Positions 2,761-43,968 of a stretch of DNA of 46,382 bases are shown here, one piece after another. This DNA is from Prevotella sp. (lineage in GTDB: Bacteria > Bacteroidota > Bacteroidia > Bacteroidales > Bacteroidaceae): assembly GCA_017619375.1 (NCBI GenBank), contig JAFZSL010000047.1, forward strand, positions 1 through 46,382, given 5' to 3'. Position 1 is the first letter of the stretch, and every line of letters begins with the position of its first letter. The position numbers and the translations under genes were made by a program. The notes below the pieces were generated by a model, which saw only the letters and a list, made by a program, of their open reading frames with translations, ran no database searches and had not been told where the DNA came from.

Positions 2761-2838
2761 TAAGAAATTGGACTTTATACGTTTGGATTTCAGATTTTAG
2801 GCGTTAGAGTCTATCAGGAATCCCCTTTGGCATATTCT

Positions 2839-8800: not shown

Positions 8801-11800
8801 GAGGCGGCCAGACCTGCAATCCGTATGAAGGCGCCACCTACACGAAGTATTACCAAAAGGACACGGAACTCGACAAGGCCACCATGCGCGTGGAGAATCC
8901 CAAGCTCAGTGTCGATGGAGCAGCCGAACTGTCTGATGTCCCCACCGGTACGAAGGCGGTGTTCAAGTTGCAATTGACCAATGAGAGTGAAACCAACACC
9001 ACCTGCAACTATGTGTTGGAAGTGTTGGAAGGTTCCAATCCCAATGGAGCCATCCTCACCATTGACGGCCAGCCCATCGGCAACGGCAATACAGGGCGCA
9101 CCGTGCGTCTTGGCGGCAGCGAGACCATCTATAAGACCCTTTATGTGGAGCAGTCCTCCACCAGCATCATCGACTACGAGGACATACGCTTGGTGCTGCG
9201 CTCGGCAGACGACGTGACCACACAGAGCGACCCCGTGGTGCTCAAGGTGCATTTCGTGCCATCCTCTGCCACCGTGGACATCAGCGTCGACAACACGGTG
9301 CTGAACATGAAATCCTATGAATTGAACAAGGGTGTCATCGTCACTGTCACCAACCTCAACAGGCAAGACCCAGGGCTCAGTGGCTTGCGCTTGCAATACC
9401 GCAAGAAGGGCCTCGACACCTGGTCGCTCGCCAAGGAATGGAAGGTGAACCCGGGAGCCGGCGAGACAAGGTTGCCCGATGGCAAGTTCTTCACCGAGAA
9501 GGTCAGCTTCCTCGACGACGGCGTGTATGAGTTGCGCGGGCAGACCTTCGGCTACTATGGCTCGGAAGGCTCCACCGAGGTGACCTATGCCACCGACATC
9601 ATCGAGGTGACCCAGGACTTGCGCGGACCGAAGATACTTGGCAACCCCTATCCCGAGTGGGGAGAGTTGTCGTATGACATTCGCAACCAGATGCATGTGC
9701 GCTTCAATGAGACCATCAACACCAACGCATTGAGCAAGACGGAAAACTTCCGCATCGTGGGCAACATCAACAACGCCGTCACCGATGCCAAGGTGCCCGA
9801 TGTGGCACTGCAGCTCAACGGCGACGAAATCACCACGCAGTCCACCTACCAGACGGGCGACAGCGACCTCGCCGTGGAAGGCTGGTTCTACCGTCAAAGC
9901 GACGGCTCCGTCTTCAGCTTGGGAACGGAGGACAACATGCTGGAACTCTACACCAGGGATGGTGGCAAAATCACGGCGCGAATTGGCGAGAGAGAGCACA
10001 TCTTCGAGTCGGATTCCATTCTGCCGGCCAACATCTGGAACTACATCGCCATGAGCCTGCAGGCCGACCCGGAACACCAAGGGCAGAGCCTCATGAGCGC
10101 CATCTACATCAATGCCGACATGACAACCCCCGTCTACATCGTGAAAGACCAGCCCGTCGTGGTGTCGCCGGGAGAGGGAAAGCTGCAAGTCGGCGGCAAT
10201 GGCATGAAAGGCATGATGCGCGACCTCGCCATCTGGAACATCAAGAAGACCGTCCTGCAGATGTATCAGGAGCGCAATGAGTTGAAAGCCAACTACACTC
10301 CGGGGCTCATCGGTTACTGGCGCATGGACGAAGGGCACGGCACGACACTTGTCGACAGGGTGCGTTCGTGCAACATGGTCATGCCGACGGAGAGTTGGTA
10401 TATCAACAACAGGAACCTCGCCACCCATCTCGATGGCTCGATGGCCATGGACATCGATGTGTCCACCTTCATGCCAAGGCCAACAGACAACTTCGCCGTG
10501 GAATTGTGGTTCCGTGCCGAAAAGGGTAGTGCCGATGGAGAACTGCTGGACCTTGCCAACGGCATGTCTGTGAGGTTCAGACAAGACGATTTGATGTTAA
10601 TAAAGACCACCTATTCAGATGTGGGAGTAATGAATGAAGGAATAGAATTGAGCGACGTAGACTACAAGGACAACCAATGGCATCACTTCGCACTGAACGT
10701 GCGCCGCGGAGCCAACGCCATCTTCTACATCGACGGACAGGCCGTCAAGACGATTCCTGAAACAGAGGTTCCCGTGCCTAATTCGCAATATTTCAGCATA
10801 GGAGACAAATTCAAAGGCGACATCGACGAAATACGCATCTGGAATGGCGCATTGACAGGCAACCTTATTGCCGACCGTCGATACGAACGTCTTAACAGTT
10901 CCTATGTCGGACTGATCGGATACTTCCCCATGGAGAGGATACACCGCGACGAGAGCGGGCATGTGACCACCAGCTACACGATGGAAAACCTTGGAGACAC
11001 CACGGTGGTCAGGTTGGAAATCATCAATGCCGACGGCTTCACCCAAGCCACCAACGCACCGGCGTTGCTGCCGGGGTCGCAAAGGTTGACTTTGGATGAA
11101 AACGAGTTCTACTACGTTGCTTCAGACGAAGAGATTTACTTCTCGTTCCCCGATGACATGCTGCCACGCATGGACGGCAACGAGTTCACCGTCGTCGTTA
11201 CCAACGTCAAGGACCTCCATGGCAACAATTCCGAGCTCATCGCGTGGAAGGTCAAGGCCGACTTCGCCCTCTTGAATTGGGCGAACAGCGACGTCATAGA
11301 CATCGTTTACGACAGGATGGCTCCTATGGAAATAGAGCAAAACTTGTACAACCTGTCCTCTTCGTCGCAGTCTTACGAGATCTTGAACCTGCCGACATGG
11401 CTTACCGTACACAATCCCGTAGGTACATGCTCCAGCAGCATGTACAACACCATCAAGTTCACCCTGCATCCATCGGCTCCCATCGGCACGCACACCCTGT
11501 TCACCTACGTCTCCGACTGCAATGGCATCAAGCGCAGCCTATGCTGGAGAATCACGGTGAAGGGCGACGAGCCCAACTGGTCGGTCACTCCTTCACTGTA
11601 TGAGAGCAGCATGGCCATGGTGGGACAGCTCTATGTGGCAGACAAGATTTGCGAGAACCCGCTGTCCAAGATTGCCGCCTTCGACGACCTTGGCACGTGC
11701 CGGGGAGTCGCCTATCCGGAATACATGGACACGCGCGACGCTTACTACCTGAACATGTATGTCTATGGCAACTCCGATTCCAAATACAACAAACTCACCT

Positions 11801-12984: not shown

Positions 12985-13014
12985 ATGCTCCATAACCATC
13001 AAGATGCAATGATT

Positions 13015-16000
13015 ATGAAAAAGAATATTATGACATACCATGCGAGAATGGCATTCTCATGCTTGTTGTTGATGCTGATGGCTGTTCCATTGCAGCTGCG
13101 TGCCGACGACATGAAGGAAGCGAAGAACTTCTGGATGAACAGCCATTCCAACTATATGACGTTCACCGTCCTCGTGACCGACCTGCATGCCAAGAACACA
13201 TGGGCAAAGGATGGCTACATCAAAGCCTATGACAACCCGAACCGGTCGGGAACGCCCATCACCCTGTTGCGTGTCTATACGAAAGACATGGACAATGACG
13301 AAGAACCGTTGTGGGAGGTGTTTGCGAAGAACATGGTCAGGGGTTCCAAGGCTTTCATGCAGAACACCGTGCCCATGGGCGATGCCGACCCCCAGGGTGC
13401 ATTGAAACTCGACGAGACCACCTTCTACGTCAACAAAGGCAGTGGAGCCAACGACACCTATGTCATCATCGACTATTATTACTCGCCTGAACTGGCAGGC
13501 AAGACCTGGTATTTCTATTATGAATACGAGCACAACTCCAGCGGGCACAAGGTGATGAGCCTGGGGTCGAACTATTGTTCGGAAACGGTGGACTGCTCCC
13601 ATTTCGACGCGATGGACTACTCGCTCAAGCGCTCCAACCTGAACACCATCGAGGTGAAGCTTCCCGCCATGCCCAACGACATCGACCAGAAGCTGCAGGA
13701 TGTGCGCAAGCACGTGGGGCACTACGACCTTGCCATCAACTACACGCTCTTCGATGGAACCGTCAAGACACAGACGGAGGCTTTCGACTGCCAGACGCAG
13801 GCTGCCACGACGGCAAACATCACCATACCCTCCGAGGCACGCAATTTCAAGACCATAGACATCACGTTGGCGGTGCGCGAAGCCTTGGAGGCTGATGGAG
13901 GAGCATGCTTCTGGGACGAGCGAAAGACATTGGACCTGAAGAACGTCTTCCCCCATGACCCGCAACCCAGCAAGCTGGGAGCCGACTTCCTTCAGTTCGA
14001 CAACAAGGTGGACCTCACTTGGAACGCCTTCACATTCGTGGAGGGACTCGAATACATCAAGACCGCCTATCCCTACGTCTACAGGATAGAAACCGACCAG
14101 TATGGCACACCCAAGTCGGGGCAGTCGTGGACCAAGCGAGACCAGCTGTCATCCGTCGGCGACACGCAGCATAGGAGCTACACCGACCAAAACGTGGCTG
14201 CCGATGGCAAATACTACAAATATTTGATCATGAACGTGCCGAAAGATTGGGAGAACAAGGAAGGGCTCAATTACCAAGCCCTCCAAAGTCCGTCGGAGGA
14301 GACCATCAACTCCTTGGGACACGTCTTCTCCAATGTCGTCTCCGCCGGTGCGCATGTCAGCATCTACAATTTGAAGCAGGATGTCACTGTCAAGGACAAG
14401 GTGAGGCTCACGTGGGAGTATTCCCGCGTGCCCGGATCTTCCAGTTCCGTCTCGTTCGAGATGTGGCGTTGCATCTCCGGCACGTCCAATTGGGAAACCT
14501 ACGCCACGGGCATCATGGGCGAGGCCAACCCCAAGGCGGGCTATACCCTTGCCTTTGTCGACGCCGACCTGCCCAGCAGGGAGGAGACCTTCGACTACAA
14601 GGTGGTGCTCAAACTCAATGGTGGGAAAGACCAGTTTGAAAGCAACGTCGTGACAGCAGGACTGCTCTCCGGCACCACCGTCACCGAACTCACCGCCACC
14701 AAGGGCGTGCACGAAAAGGTGGTGCGCGTGGCATGGAAGGCCAGTCAGGTGGGTACGGCAAACAGCAACTTCGAACTCTCCCGTCGCTATGCCGGCACCA
14801 ACGACGAGTTCCTCACCATCTACAACACCAGCGGCTCCAGCGACAGTTACACCTACGAGGATAACTCGGTGCAGCCGGGACGTTACTACGAGTATCAGGT
14901 GAAGGTCTATTCAGGCGAGAAGGAGCGTTATGACGAGAACAACTTCCAGAACATGCTTTTCGACACCGGTTTCTGCCAAGCCAGGGGCGTCATCACCGGG
15001 CGCGTCACCTTCGGCACCAGCGACACCGCAGTGGACGGCGTGCGGCTCACGCTCCAATCCAGCGACGAGGGGTCGGACAACCAAGTCACCAATTACTCGC
15101 AACGTGTCAACGGTGTCTCCACCGGCATCGCATGGGATGCTGATTCGGCTGACATCGCCACGGTGTTTGGTGATGACAAGGACTATACCATTCAGATGTT
15201 CTTGCGTCCTGATTCCAGTCTGGCACAGGGAGCCGTCATTGGCGAGATTCCCGGTTTTGGCAGGATCAAAACCGGTGGATATGCCAATGGGCATTATGAC
15301 ATCCTCCTTGAAGAACGTAAGAATTACCACGATACGTACACCTACAACTATGTGAACCATTGGAGACATATATTGTATTGGGCGGATGAAAACAAACCTA
15401 CGGGCGAACTCGATGGAGAGACTTGCTATAAACACGATCAAATGGAGCAGGTAGTCAGCCAATGGAAGGCCGAAGGTTATGAGCGCATAGGCAGGGAAGG
15501 CACCCACCAGATATATGGCAACGGGGCTTTCATCGGCCTTTACTTGAAGAAGGAGGCGCTCTCCGAACCGATAGTGGTGGGAGAAAGCGTGAGCAAGACC
15601 AGTCTTTTCCAATCGAATGTGTCCATCCCGACCAATGTGTTCTCGCTGTTGTCGTTGCAATCCAGTAAAGGCGAAATCGGCATCAGGGTCAACGACAGTA
15701 TTTCCAATGACTTCACACTCATATCGGAAGATGAGAAAACCGAGGAAATGGGTGATTTGGGAGATTACCAAGTCATCAGTGGCTTCCTGGTGACATTCGA
15801 CGGCTATTACAATACGTTTTTCGACACATATCCTCTTGTCATCAAGAACAGTAGTGTTGGCGAGGGAATACATCAGACAACATCATTGCAACATGTCATG
15901 ACCCCGTTCTCGGTGGGTGGTGCGGCAGGCATCGACGACCAAGAAGCCTTCAGGGGCAATGTCACCGAAGTGCGCGTCTGGGATCATTTGCTCACCGACA

Positions 16001-19000
16001 AGGAACGCGCCACCAACGACGACCGCATGCTGGGCGGACGTGAGACGGGACTGATGCTCTACTGGCCGATGGACGAAGGCATCGACCGCCTGGTTTACGA
16101 CGCTTCATACGCCAACGACCTGCCCAACGGGCGCCATGCCGTCGTAGGATCCAACATCAACGTATCGACCATCGTGCCTTCCGACATCCAACTCTCACGA
16201 TATGCCGTGACCAGCAACAGCGGGGAGTATACGTTGAGAGGCATTCCCTTCATCGGCTCGGGAAGCACCTATACCATCACTCCCACGAAGAGCATCCACG
16301 AGTTTGCGCCAACCTCGCGAAACGGCTTCATCAGCGCCTCCAACCTGACGCTCAACAACTACAACTTCACCGACGAGTCTTCGTTTGTCGTGCGGGGAAA
16401 GGTGACCTATCTCAACACCAACATCCCCGTCGACAGCATCACCTTCAAGGTGGACGGCTCATTGGCAGAGGCGAAGAAAGGCTCCGTCATGACCGACTCG
16501 AAAGGCGAGTATGAAATCAACGTGCCGATAGGAAGCCACAGCATAGAAGCCTACAAGGAGGGACACAAGATCAACACCTTCCCGGCAGACGGCACGACCT
16601 ATGACTTCCGTGAGTCGATGGTGGTGAACTTCACCGACTCCACCCTGGTCAATGTCACCGGACGTATCAATGGCGGCTTCACCGACAAGGATGCGCCCTT
16701 GGGCTTCCACAAGAGCACCAACCGCCTGGGCAAGGCCGTGGTGACACTGAGCATCGGCCGTGAGGCGATGAGCTCGTTCAACTATGTCGTCGACGCCCAT
16801 GGCGACGGCCGCTTCGGTACAGAGCCGATACCCGTTGCCAGTGCCACCGACAGCATACAGAGCCATGCCGTGCGTGCCGGAGGCACCCAGGACGAGACAC
16901 GCTTCATCCACATCACCACCGACCCTCAGACGGGAGAGTTCTCCGCCATGCTTCCTCCCTTGAAATACAAGGTGGAGCGCATCACGTTTGAGAGCGGCAA
17001 GGATTACGACAACGAGCCGGTGTTCAAGCAAAACCTGCCCATCATCGACGCCACCAACACCACGCTGACCAATATGAAAGAAGACTCTTTGGTCATAGAG
17101 ACGGGAGAGGTGAGGCGCTATCCCTATACCGCCAAATTCGTCAGGCAGTTGCGCAACATCCCGGCCATCGATGTCGCCCAAGGCGACATGACCCATGGGG
17201 GATTTGGGGCCAAGTCTGTCAAAGTGGCGCTTGACAATGGCGACAAGGTAGACGTGGCGGTGATGAAAGAGGATGAGAACGGCCCAACCTACTTCTACGG
17301 TCATCCCTTCTTCGAGCAGCAATCCAACTATACGTTTGACATCCATGTGGCGGAGAAGTACAAGAACCTTGACACCAAGGAGGTCTTCGAGGAGATACCC
17401 GAGGATGCCGTCGTGAGCATCATGAACAATGCCAGCCTCTCCACATTGGTCATCGGCAAGGAGGCCGTCGTCGATGGCAAGACCATGACGTCCGGGCAGG
17501 TCTATGACGTGCCCAACATCCAAGTGAAACCCGACAAGAAAGGACTGGTGAAATACACCTGGACGGCTGGCTGGCCCAACCTTGCCGAAGGCTTCCTGCG
17601 CAACCTGAGCATCGGCGTGAAGGTGGACGGCAGGACGACGATGTGGCAGGCTCCCAACTCCGCCACCGACGCCCTCGACCTCGTCGTGCTGGGCGGCATA
17701 CCCACCGGCTCCAATTTCATCACACAAGCGCCAGACCACGTGGACATGGTCATAAGAAGACCACCGGGAAACACATCTTCGGCCACGCTGACAACAGACA
17801 CCATACACAACTATTACCATTTGGAAAGTTCGTATGATGGAAAAGGTACTTTCGGAGGAGCCTTTGTCAATCTGGCTCCATCCTACAAGGTAGCTTCCGG
17901 CCCCATCGCCTTCCTGATCGGCACCTCCTTCCGTCCGTATCTCGAAGAAACCTTCAAGGCCAATGCTTACAATGAGGAGGACGAAAAGGAGGACTCCACA
18001 TACACCTACACGATCAGCACGACCATGAAGACACCGTCGGGAAACCTCTATACCCAGAACAACGGCGACACCTACATCGGACGAGGGACGAACATCCTTT
18101 TCAGCAAGGGAATGACCGTGGGATTGTTCCGGCAGCCCGACGGGTCCTACAAACTCGACACCAAGGAGTCGCTATGTTTCTCCAACCAGTTCTCCACCGT
18201 TTTCGCATTCCCGCAACAGTATATCGAAGAGGTGCAGATTCCCAATTGGGAAAAGAGAAGGGAAAGCCTGCTGACCGAAGTGGAAGGCGACCTTAGTGAC
18301 GATAATGTATGCCCTGCCGTCCCAGGAAAGGTGATGTACTACACCACCTTGAAGAAAGGCGACCCAAGGCGTGGCACAAAGAACATAGACGACTGCTGGA
18401 CCAAGGAAGAGTATGAAGCTGCAGGTGGATACCCGTCCTACCGCATGGTGTCGGGGCTCTCGGCCGATAACAACGACCTCACCGACAGCATACAGTGGTG
18501 CAACAACCAAATCCTGGTTTGGAAGAAGCACATCGAAGAAAACGAAAGGGAGAAACTCGATGTCTTCGCTCAAGACTCTTGCCTTATCGGCAACTACAGC
18601 ATCGCAAGCGGAACATCGGTCACCCAAACCGTAAAGAACAGCGGCTTGGTCGATTTCGACAACTACACCTACAAGAAATCCTATAACGTCACTCTTGAGT
18701 TCCACCCCTTGGGAAACCTATGGAACAACCTCGGCGGGTACACCATTCTCGGATGGAGCTGGAAGTGGGGTTCCACAAATACGACCACCTCAAGCAGGAC
18801 GGAAGGCTCGCAGTTCAGCTGGACACTCAGCGACTCTGAACCCACGACGGCACTGTCGGTGAACGTCTATAAGTCGAACACGGGATGGGGACCCATCTTC
18901 CGCACCTTGGGAGGACAGACCAGCAATCCCTACGAGGGTGCCACCTATACGAAGTACTACCAGAAGGGCACCGAACTCGACAAGGCCACCATGCGTGTGG

Positions 19001-22000
19001 AGAATCCCGTGCTCACCGTAGATGGCGCCAACACCGTCAGCGACGTGCCCACGGGAGGAAAGGCGAAGTTCATACTGTGCCTGACCAACGACAATGACGT
19101 GAACGCGACGGCGACCTATGTGCTCGACGTATTGGAGAACAGCAACCCCAACGGCGCCAAACTGACCATCGACGGCGATGTCCTCTCGAAAGGCGATGGG
19201 GGAAGGGTGGTCAAACTCAAGTCGGGGGAGACCATCAGGAAGACCTTGTATGTGGAGCAAGGCAGCAGAGACATCATCGACTATGAGAACATAGGGCTCG
19301 TGCTGCGCTCAAAGAATACCTATTCCACCCAGAGCGACCCTGTCTTCCTGAACGTGCATTTCGTGCCGGCATCCGCACTTGTGGAGATGAGTGTCGACCA
19401 CACTGTCCTGAACAAGGAATTGTACAAGCAAAACAAAGGCTTCATCGTCACCTTGACCAACCTTGACAGGCAGGACAAGGGATTGGAGGGAGTGCGCATA
19501 CAGTACCGTAGGAAGGGCTTGGACGCATGGATTCTCGCCAAGGAGTGGAAGACAGCCCCCAAAGCCGGCGAAGACCCCATACCGGAAGGCGAGAGCTTCC
19601 CATGGCCCGTATCCATGCCCGACAACGGCATTTATGAAATGAGAGCACAAACCTGGGGCGAATACGGTTCCGGCGAGGTGACCTACGAGACCGACATCGT
19701 GGAGGTCACACAAGACCTGAACGGACCGCAAATCCTCGGCCAGCCTTATCCCGACAGTGGCTCGTTGTCGTATGTCATGCACAACGACATGCATGTCCGT
19801 TTCAACGAGGACATCAACGGCAACGCATTGAGCAAGTCGGACAACTTCCGCATCGACGGCAACTTGAACAATGTGGTGAACACCAAGACTCGAGACGACG
19901 TGGCATTGCAGCTGAATGGCGACGAGTTCTCCACGCAGGCGACCTTCGACATGAACGAGAACCATATTGCCATGGAGGCCTGGGTCTATCTGCAGAAGGA
20001 TGGCACTATCATCAGCATAGGAACGGAGGACAACGAATTCGCAATCCTGACACACGATGGTGGAAAACTGGCTTTGCAAGCCGGACCCAATTCCAACGTC
20101 CTTGAACTGGATAATATCCTTCCTGCGAACATCTGGAATTACATCGCCATCAGTTACGACCGTGAGGAAGGAGAGGCAACGGGATTGTTCAATGGCCTTT
20201 TCATCAACGCGGGCATCGACTACCCGTACTTCTTTGCCTCGAATGTACCCGTACCCGCCATGAGTGGAGCAGGAAAACTCCATATCGGAGGAGACGGCAT
20301 GGTGGGAAGGATGCACGACCTGGCCATCTGGAACATCCAGAAATCGGTGCATAACCTTTATGCCGCAAACAGGGAGACGAAGGCCAGCTTCACCCCCGGA
20401 CTCATGGGCCATTGGAAAATGGATGAAGGACACGGCACGACCGTCGTAGACCGAGTTCGTTCGCGTGACATGGTGTTGCCTGCAGAGAGTTGGTATATCA
20501 ACAACCGCAACCTTGCAGCCCACCTGGAAAACGGCGAACCACTCCAAATCGACATCGCAGCGTTCGCACCCCGCAACACAGACAACTACGCATTGGAGTT
20601 CTGGTTCCGTGGCAATAATGTCGAATCCAACACGAGTGCCACCTTGCTGCAAGTCAACAACCGACTACGCCTGGGCTATGAAAACGGTGTGATGACCCTC
20701 ACCACCTTCGAGGACCCGGGAATGGGCGAGGTGAACAGCAAACCGAAAGAGACTTTCCTGCTGACGGAAACCAACTACAACGACAACCAATGGCACCATC
20801 TGGCACTCAACGTGAGAAGGGGCACCAGCGCCATCGTCTACATTGACGGCAGGGATGTGAAAACCATGCCGGAAGACCATATGCCGGCCATCGACGGAAG
20901 CAGGCTGCTTGTCGGAGAAGGCTTCACTGGCGACATCGACGAGCTGAGAGTGTGGAGTGCGGTGCTCACGGGTGAAATGATTGCCGACAGGCAATACGAG
21001 CGCCTCGACAGCACTTACGCCGGACTGATAGGATACTTCCCCATGGAGAGCATCCATAGGGACGAGAATGGCAATGTCGTTACGGATTTCTCAACGGAGA
21101 ACTTCGGCGACAACTCACAACTCAACAATCTCAGGATGGTGAATGGCGAACTGTTGAGCAAGGCTGCCAGCGCACCGGTGCTGCTGCCGGGTTCGCGCCT
21201 CATGCGTTTGGATGACTCTGATTTCGACTTCACCGTCTCCGACCGCGATATCTACTTCACCTTCCGCGATGACGTGCTTGCAAGAATGGACGGCAACGAG
21301 TTCACCGTGACCATCAGCAACATCAAGGACAAACACGGCAACATCTCCGACCCCATCGTGTGGAAGTTCAATGCCGATTTCTCCATCATCGAATGGGGCA
21401 GCAACACCACAGTCTCTGTTGTCAAGGACCGTGCAGAAACCAAGACCGTCCAAATCCCACTCTTCAAATTCAATACAGGATCTGAGGATTATGAGATAAT
21501 GAACTTGCCCACATGGATCACGACGGAGAATAAAATCGGCATCATGAAGGATTACGTGCTTGATCTTGAGTTCACCATCCTGCCATCGGCACCCATGGGC
21601 ATACACCCCGTCTATCTCTACGTGGGCGACAGATTGGGCATCACAAGGGTGATGAAGATGGAAGTCATCGTGACGGGCGACGACCCGAACTGGGCTGTTG
21701 ACCCCAACCTCTACGAGAGCAACATGATCGTCATCGGCCAACTCTACACGGGTGACAAGGTGTGCGAGTATGAGCGTTCCTACATCGCCGCTTTCGACCA
21801 GATGGGTGAATGCCGTGGCGTGGCTCATCCGCAGTATGTGGAATCGCGCGATGCTTACTATCTGACCATGAACATCTACGGCGCGTCAAGCACGGAAATC
21901 AGCACGGGCAAGCGCAGGCTCTACTTCAAGATGTATGATGCGGAGAAGGGAATCATCAGCCCGCTCGTGCAAATCACCATGCCTGACGGCACTGTGGCCG

Positions 22001-23115
22001 ACACCTTGGGGTACTCACGCGAGGCGTTGTATGGGTCCTATGACCAACCGGTGCTCTTCAAGGCGCTGGAAGCCGTGGAGCAGTTGGCCAAGTTGGAGCG
22101 CGGGTGGAACTGGAAGTCGATTTATGTCCAGACACCAAGCACGGCCATCGGCGACGTGATGCCGAAGGAGGCCTCCAACGTCAACAATATCCTATTTGTG
22201 AAAAGCCAAGACTCCTTCTGTACAACGAAGAGTGGCGCCTTCATAGGTGAGTTGACGGACCTGCATCCAGGACAGATGTACAAGATAAATGTCAAGAAAG
22301 ACATGACCTTGAACATCGTAGGAGCGCCCATCGACGTCGCGGTCACCTCGCAGACGATACACCACGACTACAACTGGATAGGCACGCTCTCCTCCGAGGT
22401 GATGTCGCCCGCCGTGGCATTCGCTGACCTCAAGCCTGAGAAGAACGACATGGTGAAGAACCGTACGGGATTCAGCATGTACAGGGGCGACGGTGTCTGG
22501 GAAGGTGTGTTGCAGAGCATCATCCCGGGTGAGGGATATGTTTACTATTCCAAGGCTAAGAATGACAAGACCTTCCACTATCCGAAGTTGGGAACGCAGT
22601 CGTCGCACAGCCCGGCATACCATGCGCCGGAGGCACCACACCGCTCGCCTGCCGTGCACTACACTCCCGTCGACCCCTATACTTTCCCCGACAACATGAG
22701 TGTGGTGGCCGTGGTGGTGCGTGACGGCCAGCGCCTTGCCGATGCCGAGGTGGGAGCCTTCGTCGACGGTGAGTGCCGCGGAGCCATCCGCGCCAACGAG
22801 GGCAGCGAATACTACTTCCTCACGGTGATGGGCTCGTCGGCCGACGACCAGAACCACATTGTGGAGTTGCGAGTCTTCGCCGACGGCACTGAGTATGTCG
22901 TGGACCGAAAGAACACGTTCATCAACGACCTCGTTCTGGGCGACCTTGACAACCCATACGTGCTCGACCTTGACGATGCTTCCGGCATCAAGGTGGTCTA
23001 TGCCGACGACCTCGACGACGACGGTTGGTACACCCTCCAGGGTTACAAGTTGAAGAAACGGCCCACCAGGCGGGGCGTATACATCCACCATGGAGAAAAG
23101 GTCATCGTGGAATAA
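13015..23115 (+). CDS. Giant secreted multidomain LamG-like surface protein, copy 2
   Basis: About 3,366 residues from ATG 13015 (MKKNIMTYHARM). The frame is open back to ATG 12985, which directly follows the stop of copy 1, but the later ATG gives a normal signal peptide ending near LQLRADD. Domain order matches copy 1 throughout: N-terminal beta domain, Fn3-like modules, GVITGRVTF module (about 14985), LamG-like domain (to about 16080), regulatory-like modules, RRPPG (17755), NNGDTYIG (18060), two LamG-like domains (19900-20430 and 20500-21050), the paired C-terminal modules and the tail RPTRRGVYIHHGEKVIVE. Long blocks are almost identical to copy 1 (ESWYINNRNLA, RGAIRANEGSEYYFLTVMGS), while others have no clear counterpart. 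This is a tandem duplication followed by uneven divergence. The two are probably translated from one transcript that ends at the terminator at 23131. Confidence 0.88.
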   Translation: MKKNIMTYHARMAFSCLLLMLMAVPLQLRADDMKEAKNFWMNSHSNYMTFTVLVTDLHAKNTWAKDGYIKAYDNPNRSGTPITLLRVYTKDMDNDEEPLWEVFAKNMVRGSKAFMQNTVPMGDADPQGALKLDETTFYVNKGSGANDTYVIIDYYYSPELAGKTWYFYYEYEHNSSGHKVMSLGSNYCSETVDCSHFDAMDYSLKRSNLNTIEVKLPAMPNDIDQKLQDVRKHVGHYDLAINYTLFDGTVKTQTEAFDCQTQAATTANITIPSEARNFKTIDITLAVREALEADGGACFWDERKTLDLKNVFPHDPQPSKLGADFLQFDNKVDLTWNAFTFVEGLEYIKTAYPYVYRIETDQYGTPKSGQSWTKRDQLSSVGDTQHRSYTDQNVAADGKYYKYLIMNVPKDWENKEGLNYQALQSPSEETINSLGHVFSNVVSAGAHVSIYNLKQDVTVKDKVRLTWEYSRVPGSSSSVSFEMWRCISGTSNWETYATGIMGEANPKAGYTLAFVDADLPSREETFDYKVVLKLNGGKDQFESNVVTAGLLSGTTVTELTATKGVHEKVVRVAWKASQVGTANSNFELSRRYAGTNDEFLTIYNTSGSSDSYTYEDNSVQPGRYYEYQVKVYSGEKERYDENNFQNMLFDTGFCQARGVITGRVTFGTSDTAVDGVRLTLQSSDEGSDNQVTNYSQRVNGVSTGIAWDADSADIATVFGDDKDYTIQMFLRPDSSLAQGAVIGEIPGFGRIKTGGYANGHYDILLEERKNYHDTYTYNYVNHWRHILYWADENKPTGELDGETCYKHDQMEQVVSQWKAEGYERIGREGTHQIYGNGAFIGLYLKKEALSEPIVVGESVSKTSLFQSNVSIPTNVFSLLSLQSSKGEIGIRVNDSISNDFTLISEDEKTEEMGDLGDYQVISGFLVTFDGYYNTFFDTYPLVIKNSSVGEGIHQTTSLQHVMTPFSVGGAAGIDDQEAFRGNVTEVRVWDHLLTDKERATNDDRMLGGRETGLMLYWPMDEGIDRLVYDASYANDLPNGRHAVVGSNINVSTIVPSDIQLSRYAVTSNSGEYTLRGIPFIGSGSTYTITPTKSIHEFAPTSRNGFISASNLTLNNYNFTDESSFVVRGKVTYLNTNIPVDSITFKVDGSLAEAKKGSVMTDSKGEYEINVPIGSHSIEAYKEGHKINTFPADGTTYDFRESMVVNFTDSTLVNVTGRINGGFTDKDAPLGFHKSTNRLGKAVVTLSIGREAMSSFNYVVDAHGDGRFGTEPIPVASATDSIQSHAVRAGGTQDETRFIHITTDPQTGEFSAMLPPLKYKVERITFESGKDYDNEPVFKQNLPIIDATNTTLTNMKEDSLVIETGEVRRYPYTAKFVRQLRNIPAIDVAQGDMTHGGFGAKSVKVALDNGDKVDVAVMKEDENGPTYFYGHPFFEQQSNYTFDIHVAEKYKNLDTKEVFEEIPEDAVVSIMNNASLSTLVIGKEAVVDGKTMTSGQVYDVPNIQVKPDKKGLVKYTWTAGWPNLAEGFLRNLSIGVKVDGRTTMWQAPNSATDALDLVVLGGIPTGSNFITQAPDHVDMVIRRPPGNTSSATLTTDTIHNYYHLESSYDGKGTFGGAFVNLAPSYKVASGPIAFLIGTSFRPYLEETFKANAYNEEDEKEDSTYTYTISTTMKTPSGNLYTQNNGDTYIGRGTNILFSKGMTVGLFRQPDGSYKLDTKESLCFSNQFSTVFAFPQQYIEEVQIPNWEKRRESLLTEVEGDLSDDNVCPAVPGKVMYYTTLKKGDPRRGTKNIDDCWTKEEYEAAGGYPSYRMVSGLSADNNDLTDSIQWCNNQILVWKKHIEENEREKLDVFAQDSCLIGNYSIASGTSVTQTVKNSGLVDFDNYTYKKSYNVTLEFHPLGNLWNNLGGYTILGWSWKWGSTNTTTSSRTEGSQFSWTLSDSEPTTALSVNVYKSNTGWGPIFRTLGGQTSNPYEGATYTKYYQKGTELDKATMRVENPVLTVDGANTVSDVPTGGKAKFILCLTNDNDVNATATYVLDVLENSNPNGAKLTIDGDVLSKGDGGRVVKLKSGETIRKTLYVEQGSRDIIDYENIGLVLRSKNTYSTQSDPVFLNVHFVPASALVEMSVDHTVLNKELYKQNKGFIVTLTNLDRQDKGLEGVRIQYRRKGLDAWILAKEWKTAPKAGEDPIPEGESFPWPVSMPDNGIYEMRAQTWGEYGSGEVTYETDIVEVTQDLNGPQILGQPYPDSGSLSYVMHNDMHVRFNEDINGNALSKSDNFRIDGNLNNVVNTKTRDDVALQLNGDEFSTQATFDMNENHIAMEAWVYLQKDGTIISIGTEDNEFAILTHDGGKLALQAGPNSNVLELDNILPANIWNYIAISYDREEGEATGLFNGLFINAGIDYPYFFASNVPVPAMSGAGKLHIGGDGMVGRMHDLAIWNIQKSVHNLYAANRETKASFTPGLMGHWKMDEGHGTTVVDRVRSRDMVLPAESWYINNRNLAAHLENGEPLQIDIAAFAPRNTDNYALEFWFRGNNVESNTSATLLQVNNRLRLGYENGVMTLTTFEDPGMGEVNSKPKETFLLTETNYNDNQWHHLALNVRRGTSAIVYIDGRDVKTMPEDHMPAIDGSRLLVGEGFTGDIDELRVWSAVLTGEMIADRQYERLDSTYAGLIGYFPMESIHRDENGNVVTDFSTENFGDNSQLNNLRMVNGELLSKAASAPVLLPGSRLMRLDDSDFDFTVSDRDIYFTFRDDVLARMDGNEFTVTISNIKDKHGNISDPIVWKFNADFSIIEWGSNTTVSVVKDRAETKTVQIPLFKFNTGSEDYEIMNLPTWITTENKIGIMKDYVLDLEFTILPSAPMGIHPVYLYVGDRLGITRVMKMEVIVTGDDPNWAVDPNLYESNMIVIGQLYTGDKVCEYERSYIAAFDQMGECRGVAHPQYVESRDAYYLTMNIYGASSTEISTGKRRLYFKMYDAEKGIISPLVQITMPDGTVADTLGYSREALYGSYDQPVLFKALEAVEQLAKLERGWNWKSIYVQTPSTAIGDVMPKEASNVNNILFVKSQDSFCTTKSGAFIGELTDLHPGQMYKINVKKDMTLNIVGAPIDVAVTSQTIHHDYNWIGTLSSEVMSPAVAFADLKPEKNDMVKNRTGFSMYRGDGVWEGVLQSIIPGEGYVYYSKAKNDKTFHYPKLGTQSSHSPAYHAPEAPHRSPAVHYTPVDPYTFPDNMSVVAVVVRDGQRLADAEVGAFVDGECRGAIRANEGSEYYFLTVMGSSADDQNHIVELRVFADGTEYVVDRKNTFINDLVLGDLDNPYVLDLDDASGIKVVYADDLDDDGWYTLQGYKLKKRPTRRGVYIHHGEKVIVE

Positions 23116-28644: not shown

Positions 28645-29880
28645 ATGAACTACAACACATACACACTGTCGAACGGACTGCGGGTCATCCATCTCCGTGA
28701 TGCTTCGCCCGTGGTGTTCTGCGGCTATGGCGTGAATGTCGGCGCGCGCGACGAGGCTCCCGGCGAGGAGGGACTGGCCCATTTCTGCGAACATGTCAGT
28801 TTCAAGGGCACCAAGCGGAGGCGCCCCCTCCAAGTGCTCAACTGTCTGGAGCGCGTGGGCGGCGACCTCAACGCGTTCACCAACAAGGAAGACACCGTGT
28901 ATTATGCCGCCTTGTTGAGAGACCACCTGCCAAAGGCTGTAGACCTGCTCACCGACATCACCCTGCACAGCACCTATCCGCAGAGTGAGATAGACAAGGA
29001 GGTGGAGGTGATATGCGACGAGATAGAGAGTTACAACGACTCACCCGCCGAACTCATCTACGACGAGTTTGAGAACGTGGTGTTCCAGGGCCATCCCCTC
29101 GGACATAACATCCTCGGCGACGCCGCACGCGTGAGGGCTTTCACAACAGCCGACGCCCTGCGCTTCACACAACGCTTCTACCGACCGGCCAACATGGTGT
29201 TCTTCGCCTATGGCGACATCTCCTTCTCACGATTGGTCAAACTCTTGGAGAAAGCCACCAGCGACTTCCCCGCAGCCACTCCCGAACTGCCTGATTTGGA
29301 GGAGAAACAGCCTGTGCTGCCCGATTACCACCCCGCTGTCATCGAGCACCAACGTGCCACACACCAGGCGCATGTCATGATGGGCAACCGCTCCTATGGC
29401 ATACACAGCGACAAGCGCATCGCCCTCTACCTGCTCAACAACATCCTCGGAGGACCCGGGATGAATGCGAGGCTCAACCTCTCGTTGAGGGAGCGCAACG
29501 GATTGGTGTATACCGTGGAGAGTTCCATGTCAAGTTATAGCGACACGGGGGCGTGGAGCGTCTATTTCGGCTGCGACCACCATCACGTGGAGAAATGCAT
29601 CCGGCTGGTGAAGCACGAACTCAAGAAGATGATGGACCGTCCGATGACCGCCACACGGCTGGCGACCGCCAAGCGACAATTGAAGGGGCAGATAGGCATC
29701 GCATGCGACGCCAGGGAGAGTTTTGCTCTGAGTTTCGGCAAGAGTTTCCTGCATTACGGGTGGGAGCGCGACGTGGAACGTCTCTACCAGAACATCGACG
29801 CCGTCACTCCGGAATTGTTGCAGGAAGTGGCTCAAGAAGTGCTCAATCCCGAATCACTCACCACGCTCAAGTTCTTGTGA
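28645..29880 (+). CDS. M16-family zinc peptidase (processing-peptidase-like)
   Basis: 411 residues from ATG 28645 (MNYNTYTL). The start is fixed by the family's usual opening, NTYTLSNGLRVIHL; an upstream in-frame extension would cross the promoter. The inverted zinc motif HFCEH lies near residue 49, and the distal glutamate in the VICDEIESYNDSP segment completes the HxxEH...E site. The second half is the usual inactive M16 domain (GGPGMNARLNLSLRERNGLVY). Members cleave peptides inside a clamshell chamber. This single-chain form, without a signal peptide, is probably cytoplasmic. The substrate is unknown. Confidence 0.93.
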   Translation: MNYNTYTLSNGLRVIHLRDASPVVFCGYGVNVGARDEAPGEEGLAHFCEHVSFKGTKRRRPLQVLNCLERVGGDLNAFTNKEDTVYYAALLRDHLPKAVDLLTDITLHSTYPQSEIDKEVEVICDEIESYNDSPAELIYDEFENVVFQGHPLGHNILGDAARVRAFTTADALRFTQRFYRPANMVFFAYGDISFSRLVKLLEKATSDFPAATPELPDLEEKQPVLPDYHPAVIEHQRATHQAHVMMGNRSYGIHSDKRIALYLLNNILGGPGMNARLNLSLRERNGLVYTVESSMSSYSDTGAWSVYFGCDHHHVEKCIRLVKHELKKMMDRPMTATRLATAKRQLKGQIGIACDARESFALSFGKSFLHYGWERDVERLYQNIDAVTPELLQEVAQEVLNPESLTTLKFL

Positions 29881-29892
29881 TTCAAATACCAA

Positions 29893-29970
29893 TACCTACA
29901 ACAACCTACAACGACCTACAACAACCTATAACAACCTACAACGACCTATAACAACCTACAACAACCTAAA
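29893..29970. repeat. Tandem 10-bp CCTA array, left of the four-helix-bundle gene
   Basis: CCTA recurs at exactly 10-base steps: 29895, 29905, 29915, 29925, 29935, 29945, 29955 and 29965. Typical units are AACCTACAAC, GACCTACAAC and AACCTATAAC. The array fills the gap after the M16 gene and ends 5 bases before the ATG of the next gene, so it makes up that gene's upstream region. Confidence 0.92.
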
Positions 29971-29973
29971 ATA

Positions 29974-30687
29974 ATGGAATACGACACCAAGGGAAAAGTG
30001 TTGAAAAAGCCCGTGGAATGGCAGAAACTATACTTCTACCGCAAGAGTGATGCCATATACCAGTTGACGGTAGAGTTCTGTCGTCGATACCTTCCACCTT
30101 ATGGAGACCGTACGGTAGACCAGATGATACAAGCCGCCCGCAGTGGAAAACAGAACATTGTGGAAGGGAGTGAAGATGGACAGACCAGTTCGGAAATGGA
30201 GATCAAACTGCTCAATGTCGCCCGTAGTAGTCTGCAAGAACTTTCTTCTGACTATCACGACTACCTGAACAATCATCACCTCACTCTTTGGGCAACTGAC
30301 AGTCCACGTCTTTTGCGCCTTCGTCAATTCTGTCATTCACACAACGACTACAGTGATTATTCACCGTTTGTTGACAAGATGACCGATGAAGAGATGGCCA
30401 ACATGGCCATCACCCTTTGTCATCAGACCAACAAAATGATGTGTGCTTATCTACAATGGTTAGAGCGCCGTTTTGTAGAAGATGGCGGTATAAAGGAACG
30501 CATGCACGCTGCTCGCACCGGCTATCGTAAAGCACAGGACAACCACCTACAAGCCTTGGAGGCAGAAAACCAGCAGTTAAAAGCCGAAAACCAACAGTTA
30601 AAAGCCGAAAACCAACAGTTAAAAGCCGAAATAGAATCTTTAAAAAAGAGATTGAAAGAACAGGAAGAAATAAATAGGAGGTTATAG
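29974..30687 (+). CDS. Four-helix-bundle protein with C-terminal coiled coil
   Basis: 237 residues, without signal peptide or membrane segment. Residues 1 to about 160 resemble the four-helix-bundle family related to the 23S rRNA intervening-sequence protein (key motif SGKQNIVEGS near 55-64) and, at fold level, to the Avd accessory protein of diversity-generating retroelements. The helical extension fits the 'four helix bundle suffix' subgroup. The C-terminal part is a coiled coil with heptads of NQQLKAE repeated three times, then EIESLKKRLKEQEEINRRL. The heptads are encoded by near-identical 21-bp repeats (30565-30627). The function of this subgroup is not established; nucleic-acid binding is an inference from relatives. 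The gene lies inside 10-bp CCTA arrays on both sides, and its stop codon is inside the right array. Confidence 0.85.
   Translation: MEYDTKGKVLKKPVEWQKLYFYRKSDAIYQLTVEFCRRYLPPYGDRTVDQMIQAARSGKQNIVEGSEDGQTSSEMEIKLLNVARSSLQELSSDYHDYLNNHHLTLWATDSPRLLRLRQFCHSHNDYSDYSPFVDKMTDEEMANMAITLCHQTNKMMCAYLQWLERRFVEDGGIKERMHAARTGYRKAQDNHLQALEAENQQLKAENQQLKAENQQLKAEIESLKKRLKEQEEINRRL
30565..30627 (+). repeat. Three 21-bp in-frame repeats encoding heptads
   Basis: Units at 30565-30585, 30586-30606 and 30607-30627 (GAAAACCAACAGTTAAAAGCC type; the first differs by one base) each encode one coiled-coil heptad. Slippage in steps of 21 bases would keep the frame and change coiled-coil length. Confidence 0.9.
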
Positions 30688-30826
30688 GGGGTAGGTGATA
30701 ATAGGTTATTTTTAGGTGGTTATAGGATCTCCTAAATCTACCTATTTCTACCTATCTCTACCTATCACTACCTATCTCTACCTATCACTACCTATTTCTA
30801 CCTAAAACCACCTATCACCACCTATC
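30675..30826. repeat. Strand-switching 10-bp array, right of the four-helix-bundle gene
   Basis: The plus strand first carries TAGG at 30675, 30685, 30692, 30702, 30713 and 30723. It then switches at the small palindrome TAGGATCTCCTA (30723-30734) to CCTA at 30731, 30741, 30751, 30761, 30771, 30781, 30791, 30801, 30811 and 30821, exactly every 10 bases. The halves are complementary enough to fold into a long hairpin. The array starts inside the last codons of the upstream gene and ends before the WbqC-like stop at 30841, so it might also work as a bidirectional terminator. Confidence 0.9.
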
Positions 30827-30840
30827 CATCATGCAAAAAC

Positions 30841-31509
30841 CTATAGGAAAAACACGCTTTCGTTTCCTTCGTTCATCAGTAGGTCGAGGATGCTTAGGTT
30901 GGGCAGGAAACCGTGTTTCTGTTCAAACACCTGATAATAACGGCGTGGCGTGAATGATGCATCTGGCAGTGGATGCTTCGGGCGGATGACATCGCGGAAA
31001 TCATCCAAAGTTTCTAAGGACCCTGATGTCTTTGAGGCCCCTAAACTCTCCACCCCTCCAAGAGCCATGAAGTTCTCTTTGCTCTCATAGCGCTCCGTGT
31101 GCTTGATATGGGGGCGTATGTCGAGCAGTTCGCATATCTTCTCCATGATGGCCTCGTTGAAGTCCACCAGGAACTCCCATCTCCGCTCGAAAAACGGCGC
31201 CAAGTCGTCGGCATAGAACTCAAAGAAGGGCGACTCGCCGTAGGCGCTGCGGATGGCGTTCCAATGGAGGCGCCGCCATTCGCCGTGGTCGCTGATGCGC
31301 ATGTCGCGCGTGAGTGGCGACGTGCCGTCGTGGACGACGGGCACGGTGAGCGTCAGCGGACCGTGGGTGGCGGCGATGACACACCGGTTGCGGTAGGTCT
31401 GCTTGATGAAGCTGTCGTGACGCTCCAGCCACACCGTATCGTAACGGTGCAACTTCTGATACCACTGCACGGGACCGAAATAGGTGGTGGAAAGCAAACA
31501 GGCTGCCAT
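30841..31509 (-). CDS. WbqC-like family protein
   Basis: About 222 residues from ATG 31509 (MAACLLSTTYFGPVQWYQ); an upstream in-frame ATG at 31545 adds 12 basic residues and is less likely. The opening STTYFGPVQWYQKL, the following YDTVWLERHDSFIKQTYRNRC and the LTVPV segment are typical of the WbqC-like family. Members occur in O-antigen and other loci but their reaction is not settled. No signal peptide. It follows the DsbD-like gene on the minus strand with about 43 bases between this start and that stop, so they are probably co-transcribed. Confidence 0.85.
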   Translation of the reverse strand: MAACLLSTTYFGPVQWYQKLHRYDTVWLERHDSFIKQTYRNRCVIAATHGPLTLTVPVVHDGTSPLTRDMRISDHGEWRRLHWNAIRSAYGESPFFEFYADDLAPFFERRWEFLVDFNEAIMEKICELLDIRPHIKHTERYESKENFMALGGVESLGASKTSGSLETLDDFRDVIRPKHPLPDASFTPRRYYQVFEQKHGFLPNLSILDLLMNEGNESVFFL

Positions 31510-31552
31510 GGCGAAGCGTCTTTTGCGAGTTGTGCGTTCTTGCAAAAGAACC

Positions 31553-33649
31553 TTATTCCTTGTAATTGTCGAGACCCTCTTTCAGGAACTTGAGATACTC
31601 GTCGACATCCTCCTTGTAACTGAAGGAACGGGCGAGGGGATTGCCGTCGTTGTCCACCAGGACATAGAGCGGCTGGGTGAGGTAGCCGAACTTCATCTCC
31701 TCCAGGTAGCTCCATTTGTCACCAACGGTGCGCAGGGTGCGCTTCTTGCCGTTGTATTCCACCTCGACGGGTTCCTTGAGCGGTGTCTTGTCGTCGACGA
31801 AGAGGGAGATGAGCACGTAGTCCTTGTTCAGGCGGTCGGCCACCGTGGGGTCGGTCCACACGGCGATTTCCATCTTGCGGCAGTTGACGCAGCCGAAACC
31901 GGTGAAGTCGAGCATCACGGGCTTGCCATTTGCCTTGGCGACGGCCATGCCTTCCTCGTAGTTGGTGTAGGCGGCGCGCACCTCCTTGGTGTTGAGGTTG
32001 AAGTCCTGCGTGTAGAGGGGTGGGGAGAAGGCGCTGACGGCGCGGCAGGGAGCACCCCACAGGCCGGGGAGCATGTAGACGGAGAAGGCGATGGACGCCA
32101 GTCCGAGCATGATGCACAGCACGGGCATCGCCTTGCGCTCCTCGCCGTCGCTCTGGAACCTCAAGACTCCGATGAGGTAGAGGCCCATGAGGAAGAAGAT
32201 GGCTATCCACAGCGAGAGGAACACCTCGCGGTCGAGCAGGCGCCACCCGTAGGCCAGGTCGGCCACGGAGAAGAATTTTAGCGCGAAGGCGAGTTCGATG
32301 AATCCCAGCACCACCTTGATGATGTTCATCCACGACCCCGACTTGGGTGCTTGCTTCAGCCAGGTGGGAAAGAGGGCGAAGAGGGTGAAGGGCAGGGCGA
32401 GGGCGATGGCGAAGCCGAGCATGCCGATGGCCGGCCCGAGCCAGTTGCCGGAGGTGGTGCTCTCCACGAGGAGCAGTCCTACGATGGGTCCGGTGCAAGA
32501 GAAACTGACGAGTGTCAGCGTGAAGGCCATGAGGAAGATGGAGAGCAGTCCGCTTGTGGACGATGCCTTGCTGTCCACCTTGTTGGTCCACGAGGAGGGC
32601 AGGGTGAGTTCGAACCATCCGAAGAAGGACAGGGCGAAGACGACGAGCAGGAGGCAGAAGAAGATGTTGAAGACGGCGTTGGTGGCCAGATTGTTGAGCA
32701 TGTCGGCACCGAAGATGGCGGTGACGAGGAGTCCCAGCGCAAGGTAGATGACGATGATGGAGATGCCGTAGGTGATGGCGTCGCGCAAGCCTTTCCGCTT
32801 GTCCTTGTTGCGCTTGAGGAAGAAACTGACCGTCATGGGGATGATGGGCCACACGCAGGGGGTGAAGACGGCGAGCAGTCCGTAGAGCAGTCCCATGAGG
32901 AAGATGTAGAGCCATGAGCGGTCGGAGATGTTGCCGCCGTTGAGGGTCTTCAACTCGTCGACGGAGGGTTGCCACCATTTGTCGGCGGAGGAGGCGACGA
33001 GGGCGCTGTCCACGACGGTAGTCGCGACGGTGTCGGCGTTCTCTGCGATGAGAGTGCCGGTGGTGTCTGCCGGGACGGCCGCTGCGGCGAGAACGGCTGC
33101 CGGGGTGGCCTCGGCTGCTGCTGGTTGTTCCTTGGCGGCTTCCTCTTTCTTCGGTTCGGGTGTCGGGGCTTCCTCAGGGCCTTTGCCGGTGTAGTCGAAC
33201 TCCACTGTGGAAGGCGGCATGCACATTTGGTCGTTGCATGCCCCGTATTCCAGATAACCCTTCACATGGTAGGTCTTTCCCGTCACCTTGTATTTTTGGA
33301 TGAAGGTGACGTTGTTCTCGAAGTAGCGCACCTTCATCTCAAAGATTTTGTCGTCCTCGGCGATTTCCTTGCCCTGTTTCACCAGACCACCCATGGGCGC
33401 GGCGCCCTCGGCCACTTCGGTATGCATCACGGCAGACTGAGGCCCTCCAGCGGGAAGGTCGGTGGAATAGACGTGCCAGCCCTTGTCGATTTTCGCGGTG
33501 AACACCACGTCGACCTCGGTGGGCGACACCTGTTTCTGCTGCACGGTGAAGTTTACTGGCGCCTGGGCGTGGCAGAACGTGGCGACCATGGCCAGCCACA
33601 AGGCGGCGAAGAGCCACCTTGAGATGCTTGGAGTCATTCTTTCTCTCAT
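31553..33649 (-). CDS. DsbD-like thiol:disulfide interchange protein
   Basis: About 698 residues from ATG 33649 (MRERMTPSISRW); ATG 33637 is also possible. A signal peptide ends near FCHAQ. The periplasmic N-terminal domain has the CNDQMC cysteine pair. An Ala/Pro/Glu-rich linker leads to the CcdA/DsbD-like membrane core of about eight helices, with cysteines in TPCVWP and SCTGP. The C-terminal thioredoxin domain has the active site CVNC (GFGCVNCRKME). DsbD carries electrons from cytoplasmic thioredoxin across the inner membrane to periplasmic partners. All three cysteine pairs are present, so it should work. It is followed by the WbqC-like gene. Confidence 0.93.
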   Translation of the reverse strand: MRERMTPSISRWLFAALWLAMVATFCHAQAPVNFTVQQKQVSPTEVDVVFTAKIDKGWHVYSTDLPAGGPQSAVMHTEVAEGAAPMGGLVKQGKEIAEDDKIFEMKVRYFENNVTFIQKYKVTGKTYHVKGYLEYGACNDQMCMPPSTVEFDYTGKGPEEAPTPEPKKEEAAKEQPAAAEATPAAVLAAAAVPADTTGTLIAENADTVATTVVDSALVASSADKWWQPSVDELKTLNGGNISDRSWLYIFLMGLLYGLLAVFTPCVWPIIPMTVSFFLKRNKDKRKGLRDAITYGISIIVIYLALGLLVTAIFGADMLNNLATNAVFNIFFCLLLVVFALSFFGWFELTLPSSWTNKVDSKASSTSGLLSIFLMAFTLTLVSFSCTGPIVGLLLVESTTSGNWLGPAIGMLGFAIALALPFTLFALFPTWLKQAPKSGSWMNIIKVVLGFIELAFALKFFSVADLAYGWRLLDREVFLSLWIAIFFLMGLYLIGVLRFQSDGEERKAMPVLCIMLGLASIAFSVYMLPGLWGAPCRAVSAFSPPLYTQDFNLNTKEVRAAYTNYEEGMAVAKANGKPVMLDFTGFGCVNCRKMEIAVWTDPTVADRLNKDYVLISLFVDDKTPLKEPVEVEYNGKKRTLRTVGDKWSYLEEMKFGYLTQPLYVLVDNDGNPLARSFSYKEDVDEYLKFLKEGLDNYKE

Positions 33650-43792: not shown

Positions 43793-43924
43793 CGAATAAA
43801 GTGGGATAAATCTCACTTAAAGTCACTTAAATTTCATTTTCTTCATTACTTTAAAAACGTCTGATAATCAGATGTTTAATAAAATATGGAGATAAAAATA
43901 TACTCAAAAAGTTGTCTAAACTCG

Positions 43925-43968
43925 CTTAAATCTCACTTAAATCTCACTTAAATCTCACTTAAAATCGG
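43925..43968. repeat. 11-bp tandem repeats overlapping the 3' end of the AlbA_2/ATPase gene
   Basis: CTTAAATCTCA begins at 43925, 43936 and 43947, with a fourth, partial unit at 43958: exact 11-base steps. Looser units (AAATCTCACTTAAAGTCACTTAAATTTC) lie at about 43808-43836. The array crosses the stop codon (43955-43957) of the minus-strand gene, so the last three residues are encoded by repeat DNA. Confidence 0.88.

Follow-up and report, generated by a model that had tools for sequence, protein, structure and literature searches.

Between an M16 peptidase gene and a convergent WbqC gene in the window (the whole stretch of 46,382 nucleotides analyzed here) lies a gene that is bordered on both sides by arrays of evenly spaced CCTA units. 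The question raised by this locus is whether the gene and the arrays belong together and, if so, what the encoded protein, assigned to a family whose name (four helix bundle suffix, TIGR04258) carries no function, has to do with the repeats.

Results

Gene and arrays in the window

The upstream array (Table 1), with its eight CCTA units at 29895, 29905 and so on to 29965 in exact 10-base steps, fills the space between the stop codon of the M16 peptidase gene (29880) and the ATG at 29974, leaving 5 bases after the end of the last unit at 29968, just as the preliminary description had it. That description had also recognized a larger array starting in the final codons and running on past the gene, which is borne out by the coordinates (from the TAGG at 30675 to the CCTA that ends at 30824); beyond what it recorded, this downstream array is an inverted pair, and such arrays are also scattered genome-wide (see below). 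In the inverted half, TAGG units are found at 30675, 30685, 30692, 30702, 30713, and 30723 (steps of 10, 7, 10, 11, and 10), beginning within the last codons of the gene, whose TAG stop (30685–30687) is itself part of a TAGG unit. The ten direct units span 30731–30824 at exact 10-base steps and the array reaches the convergent WbqC gene, both convergent genes ending with a stop codon inside array units. TRF detected the upstream array and, of the downstream one, its direct half, and the pattern CCTA-N6-CCTA-N6-CCTA occurred 14 times in the window, always within the two arrays, as compared to a mean of 0.00 in 100 shuffles. The predicted RNA fold of 30670–30830 was better than that of shuffled sequences (z = −3.64). 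A search of Rfam over 29500–31600 returned nothing above the gathering score, and a promoter and terminator scan returned about the same number as in shuffles.

Elsewhere in the window we observed two adjacent giant ORFs (2827–12984, 3385 aa, with a Laminin_G_3 domain, and 12985–23115, 3376 aa) and a short 11-bp tandem array at 43917–43963 (TAAATCTCACT, 4.4 copies).

Table 1. Features of the bundle gene locus, in window coordinates.
Feature	Position	Strand	Basis
Upstream array, eight direct CCTA decamers	29895..29968	+	Repeat count, TRF, triplet pattern
Four helix bundle suffix gene, 237 aa	29974..30687	+	TIGR04258 and TIGR02436 scores
Strongly conserved family block, residues 46–65, RTVDQMIQAARSGKQNIVEG	30109..30168	+	97-row alignment
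Suffix domain, residues 138–186	30385..30531	+	TIGR04258 match, 97-row alignment
21-bp tandem repeat in coding region	30565..30631	+	TRF; repeated heptads of C-terminal helix
Downstream array, inverted half, six TAGG	30675..30726	−	Repeat count, RNA fold
Downstream array, direct half, ten CCTA decamers	30731..30826	+	Repeat count, TRF, triplet pattern
WbqC last codons	30841..30846	−	TAG stop within CCTATAGG, array edge

The encoded protein exceeds the curated cut-offs of both TIGR04258 (73.6 bits, cut-off 40, residues 138–186) and TIGR02436, the four helix bundle protein family (29 bits, cut-off 24, residues 28–92), and is therefore a member of both; PF05635 (23S rRNA IVP) scores 26.3 bits, under the Pfam gathering score of 33.8. 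Its matches in Pfam and NCBIfam are to bundle, suffix, and coiled-coil entries. In the AlphaFold model (mean pLDDT 95.7) the protein is predicted to be all-helical, with residues 173–236 forming a single predicted helix. Among family members, the polar residues D45, D49, Q53, R56, Q60, N61, E64, E89, and D93 are invariant, as is GG-x2-E-x-M-x3-R at residues 171–181 of the suffix domain. No transposase family matched the protein at its curated cut-off (the IS3 transposase scored 13.5 bits, cut-off 160), and none of five scanned neighbors (QueC, M16, WbqC, DsbD, and serine dehydratase) is a reverse transcriptase.

Two further identities were tried and rejected. The PADLOC matches that would make this a defense protein were weak (LmuB scored best, with E = 8e-4 and 16.7 bits over residues 74–234), and we take them as coiled-coil likeness. 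Pfam bZIP_1 fell under its cut-off for the suffix, and a bZIP reading of that domain survives as a mere idea.

Arrays beside other copies of the gene

We pooled the best 80 of 195 loci, 30 from a search of 399 genomes, and the copies of 49 genomes (which hold 50 of the collected loci), together with 21 matches in ten relatives, three of which (G638, G581, and G614) were, judging by coordinates, already within the 49, and 29 loci, mostly distant, from a phylum sample. After genes that were split, low-scoring, or truncated at the start had been removed, 242 copies remained, and counting those identical over the first 160 residues once left 196, a sample that leans to near relatives. Periods of 8 to 11 bp were tried, and an array was called at a score of 18 or more.

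The preliminary description had proposed that the flanks of homologues be scanned for short tandem repeats. Among the 188 copies with both flanks readable, an array was found on at least one side in 142 and on both sides in 52, with no array at threshold in the other 46. By side, arrays were present in 101/192 upstream and 99/192 downstream flanks, as compared to 1/226 control segments of the same loci. The period was 9 bp in 121 arrays, 10 bp in 62, 8 bp in 12, and 11 bp in 5; a separate scan of lags 5 to 25 likewise ranked 9 and 10 highest, together with 18 and 20, and, at a threshold of at least 30 of 40, gave 58/108 upstream, 60/109 downstream, and 5/215 controls. Other tandem repeats, with periods of 22–24 bp, adjoin some copies. 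Of 99 downstream arrays, 54 have already begun by the last base of the stop codon. In 48 of the 52 copies with an array on each side, both arrays have the same period (shuffles averaged 25.6 and never exceeded 36), and the units of a gene's own two arrays have a similarity of 0.90, versus 0.64 for cross pairs. The copy in Prevotella nigrescens has only a weak CCTAG run, with no array over threshold in the ∼90 kb examined.

Several individual loci are recorded here as observations. Copies L380–L408, mostly from other families of the phylum, have weaker 9-bp arrays that are mostly under threshold, and in some distant copies the upstream and downstream units are inverted relative to one another (e.g., GGGAC before and GTCCCA after the gene in L386). 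The viral contig L410, with a distant relative of the gene (35% identity), has 9-bp arrays at 114–156 and 1063–1104, ∼2–3 kb upstream of the gene. Three copies (L072, L074, and L109), from contigs that bear the name Kiritimatiellae or Victivallales, have TCTAGA- or GCTAGA-like arrays and represent either transfer or binning error.

The unit varies by clade. A 6-bp palindrome with 3–4 variable bases is found in 64 of 113 typed copies, the common units being CCTAGG+4, CTATAG+3 or +4, TCTAGA+3, ACTAGT+3 or +4, and TCCGGA+3; other clades have GTCNGAC+2 or CTCNGAG+2, and the unit of the window is a less palindromic relative within the CCTAGG clade. With types assigned by our own rules and 83 copies typed as “none” or “other” excluded, the unit type of the 113 typed copies changes 25 times on a 194-row protein tree (versus a mean of 79.7 and a minimum of 72 in 300 shuffles). 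The five palindromic hexamers alone (64 copies) change 4 times, the minimum possible (shuffles: mean 32.9, least 27), and the array period changes 19 times versus 51.6 when shuffled. The unit thus follows the protein tree, which would also be expected of arrays inherited with the gene and so is alone no proof of recognition; the comparisons of dispersed arrays that follow reach further. The hexamer core is less variable than the spacer (0.90 versus 0.69–0.70 in the two largest types), although the hexamer used for labeling also determined which columns counted as core.

Dispersed arrays

The genome of the window (G000) has one copy of the gene and 237 (124+113) matches to the CCTA-N6 triplet pattern, as compared to 3+2 for a reversed-pattern control, and 62+51 quintuplet matches; the CCTA form was counted in this genome only. 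Because matches overlap, and because the counts include the gene's own arrays, dispersed arrays are fewer than these numbers. We sought clusters of at least 4 units in 34 fetched stretches of this genome and in the window, and located 36, with none in five of the stretches and three cut on one side by the end of a stretch. All but one of the 36 lie outside ORFs, often abutting stop codons, and the orientations of the flanking ORFs are mixed (++ 11, +− 10, −+ 6, and −− 5 of 36). The preliminary description had taken gene and arrays to be one cassette; the framing holds, with 142 of the 188 copies framed on at least one side, but the arrays are also dispersed over the whole genome.

Runs of both orientations were observed in five of these clusters. 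In the window (30675–30826), L200, and L202, the TAGG run comes first and the CCTA run lies apart from it, so that the two can fold into a hairpin; the opposite runs of L188 and L209 overlap because the units are CCTAGG.

Array type is associated with both the presence and the type of the gene. Of 399 genomes from one bacterial family, 35 contain CCTAGG triplets, and the gene is in 32/35 of these versus 111/364 others (Fisher P = 1e-12; this and the P values below are too small because the genomes are related to one another). The three with CCTAGG arrays and no gene found are G053, G065, and G204. In the 49 gene-bearing genomes, CTATAG triplets were present in 16/16 with a CTATAG-framed copy versus 9/29 others (P = 2e-6), four genomes with the 10-bp CTATAG form having been dropped and G417 typed from a separate run. 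For G441, the count of 130 CTATAG matches preceded retrieval of its gene copies, among which a CTATAG-framed one (L257) was then found. The association for TCTAGA in the 49 genomes is weak (P = 0.009): the two highest counts (179 and 53) belong to TCTAGA-framed genomes, but 2 of 7 such genomes have zero matches. Arrays for which no matching copy was found are present for CTATAG in G399, G400, G408, and G426 (29–44 matches) and for TCTAGA in G399, G400, G410, G418, G427, and G446 (9–34 matches). These exceptions are metagenome-assembled or uncultured records and may therefore have missing or foreign contigs; loss and wrong typing are also possible.

Orthologous sites and distribution

A 9-kb stretch of the window's genome with three arrays was aligned against ten relatives, and one intergenic site was found to have different arrays in different genomes. 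The first site has a CCTA array in G491 and a short remnant in G638. The second site has the CCTA decamer in G000, a CTAGA nonamer array in G491 and G638, and a ACTCCGATT nonamer array in G674, with none visible in the other seven relatives. At the third site G479 has a TTTAAGGTC-like array, the others being without a clear array. The gene copy of G674 (L361) is framed by a unit of the same kind as that genome's second-site array; no gene copy was found to match the array of G479 or the CTAGA array of G491 and G638, so that a matching copy is known for one of three other array types at these sites.

Genomes with and without the gene were compared at the M16-WbqC junction, as suggested by the preliminary description. 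The gene is present there in G638 and absent in G491, whose M16 gene is 93% identical, and M16 and WbqC are about 50 bp apart in G524 with no gene between, but no target-site duplication was readable from G491 or G524. In place of the gene, the G491 junction (L349:1330–1860) has a ∼200-bp sequence in two diverged copies.

The gene was found in 143/399 sampled genomes of the one family and in 50/395 of the phylum sample, at varied places: among the best 80 of 195 loci, no cluster of neighbors (built from ORFs of at least 110 aa within 4 kb) occurred in more than 8. It had no match in 50,697 phage records, a single match in 72,556 plasmid records (on a 568-kb replicon of Prevotella nigrescens), and one distant relative (35% identity) in viral contigs, so in those collections carriage by phages or plasmids is not the usual route of spread.

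A constant accessory gene was rejected since the largest common neighbor cluster comprised just 8 of those 80 loci. These are L038, L043, L053, L065, L071, L081, L082, and L092; the shared neighbor is hsdM in the two members scanned, and in L043 and L082 the bundle gene is situated within a type I restriction-modification locus, with hsdS and hsdR on its two sides.

Discussion

We consider it probable that the gene encodes a sequence-specific protein that, with its cognate arrays, acts in trans and establishes or maintains a non-autonomous repeat family. The closest parallel is RAYT/REP, in which, according to PMC2817692, the gene is framed by repeats, repeats and protein coevolve, and the abundance of dispersed repeats tracks the gene. 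The bundle gene is similarly flanked by repeats, on at least one side in most copies and on both in 52 of 188, and its cognate repeats are dispersed and correlated with gene presence (for CCTAGG and CTATAG, and weakly for TCTAGA). From the framing, the matching units, and the gene-associated dispersed cognates, which together make up the RAYT/REP pattern, we infer recognition and upkeep of the arrays by the protein. The two systems differ in their proteins, an S23/Avd-type all-helical bundle here and a Y1/HUH tyrosine transposase there, and in their repeats: REPs are described in PMC3733652 as 20–40 bp palindromes with a GTAG or CGTC tag, whereas here the units are short and tandem, mostly 9 or 10 bp, with variable spacers.

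Under this explanation the gene product would be a sequence-specific nucleic-acid-binding protein, made up of an S23/Avd-type helix bundle and an added C-terminal helix. Its cognate site would be the short tandem unit, mostly of 9 or 10 bp and built in several clades from a 6-bp palindrome and a 3–4 nt spacer. The protein would act on its own framing arrays and on the many cognate intergenic arrays of the same genome, and may establish or maintain them as a non-autonomous repeat family, as has been proposed for RAYT/REP. The protein would bind the unit physically and may be the cause of array spread or upkeep. The unit is probably recognized by an oligomer; a homopentamer has been reported for Xcc0516 (PMC4990558). 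Judging from the sequence, neighboring palindromic units could form 6-bp hairpins with 3–4 nt loops, which would fit single-strand recognition.

A bolder and, to us, doubtful extension is that the bundle protein is a repeat-writing element, one that itself creates its cognate short arrays and drives their spread. An active site would then be formed by the invariant polar residues (D45, D49, Q53, R56, Q60, N61, E64, E89, and D93), the unit would be set by the varying N-terminus and the suffix, and each clade would install its own unit across the intergenic DNA of its host.

It is unlikely that the protein is instead a host regulatory or architectural factor, with arrays that serve as its sites (in insulation, as roadblocks, or in nucleoid organization) and are selected for fitness rather than spread by the protein. 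Conserved cores with variable spacers would suit such a factor, as would the occupation of intergenic spaces of all orientations, but a site whose array type differs among relatives and a gene as patchy as this one (143/399 genomes of one family) are unlike a core host function, and the arrays favor no single gene context. An RNA-level system, in which array hairpins in transcripts are bound by the protein for autoregulation or for RNA processing like that of the 23S IVS, strikes us as quite improbable even though the downstream array of the window folds better than shuffles, adjacent palindromic units should be able to pair (6-bp stems, 3–4 nt loops), and rRNA inserts that RNase III excises are known to encode S23 proteins, the S23/IVS ORF of Coxiella being preceded by tandem heptamers (PMC4990558); the arrays are also found in divergent and convergent spacers, palindromy yields hairpins regardless of function, and no Rfam match over the gathering score was found in 29500–31600. 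Ordinary slippage, by which tandem repeats arise anywhere and the gene merely sits in repeat-rich spacers, is highly improbable, for although other tandem repeats (e.g., periods of 22–24 bp) adjoin some copies and linked arrays would likewise track the protein tree, controls had just 1 array in 226, and array types elsewhere in the genome are associated with gene presence and type. This reading would gain from equal frequency of the units in gene-free genomes; CCTAGG triplets occur in 3/256 of those.

The protein shares with S23 (PF05635; TIGR02436) the bundle fold (2gsc, 2rld) and, at residues 57–64, the S...N..E part of a motif described for the IVP family in PMC3936711, in which IVP-family genes are also noted to occur in cas loci; it shares with S23 of Coxiella the short tandem repeats before the ORF. 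Unlike S23, the window gene lies between the M16 peptidase and WbqC genes and not within a 23S rRNA gene, its PF05635 score is below cut-off, it has an extra suffix domain, and its arrays are dispersed in trans. Suffix-less S23 genes for comparison were not found among the sequences collected or in plasmids. Alignments with Avd of diversity-generating retroelements gave 6–9% identity. No pairing of a gene with repeats that involves this protein or repeat form is known to us, and no description of an association of TIGR04258 genes with arrays was found in searches of open PMC papers. The gene-repeat relation itself resembles RAYT/REP.

A family of unassigned role gains a testable partner, its own short array, and the natural protein-unit pairs are a ready specificity series for binding tests. 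The proposed relation would connect a family of dispersed repeats with the S23/Avd fold and provide a second case, unrelated in protein, of the RAYT/REP relation, and it may account for much of the decamer and nonamer repetition seen in the spacers of these genomes.
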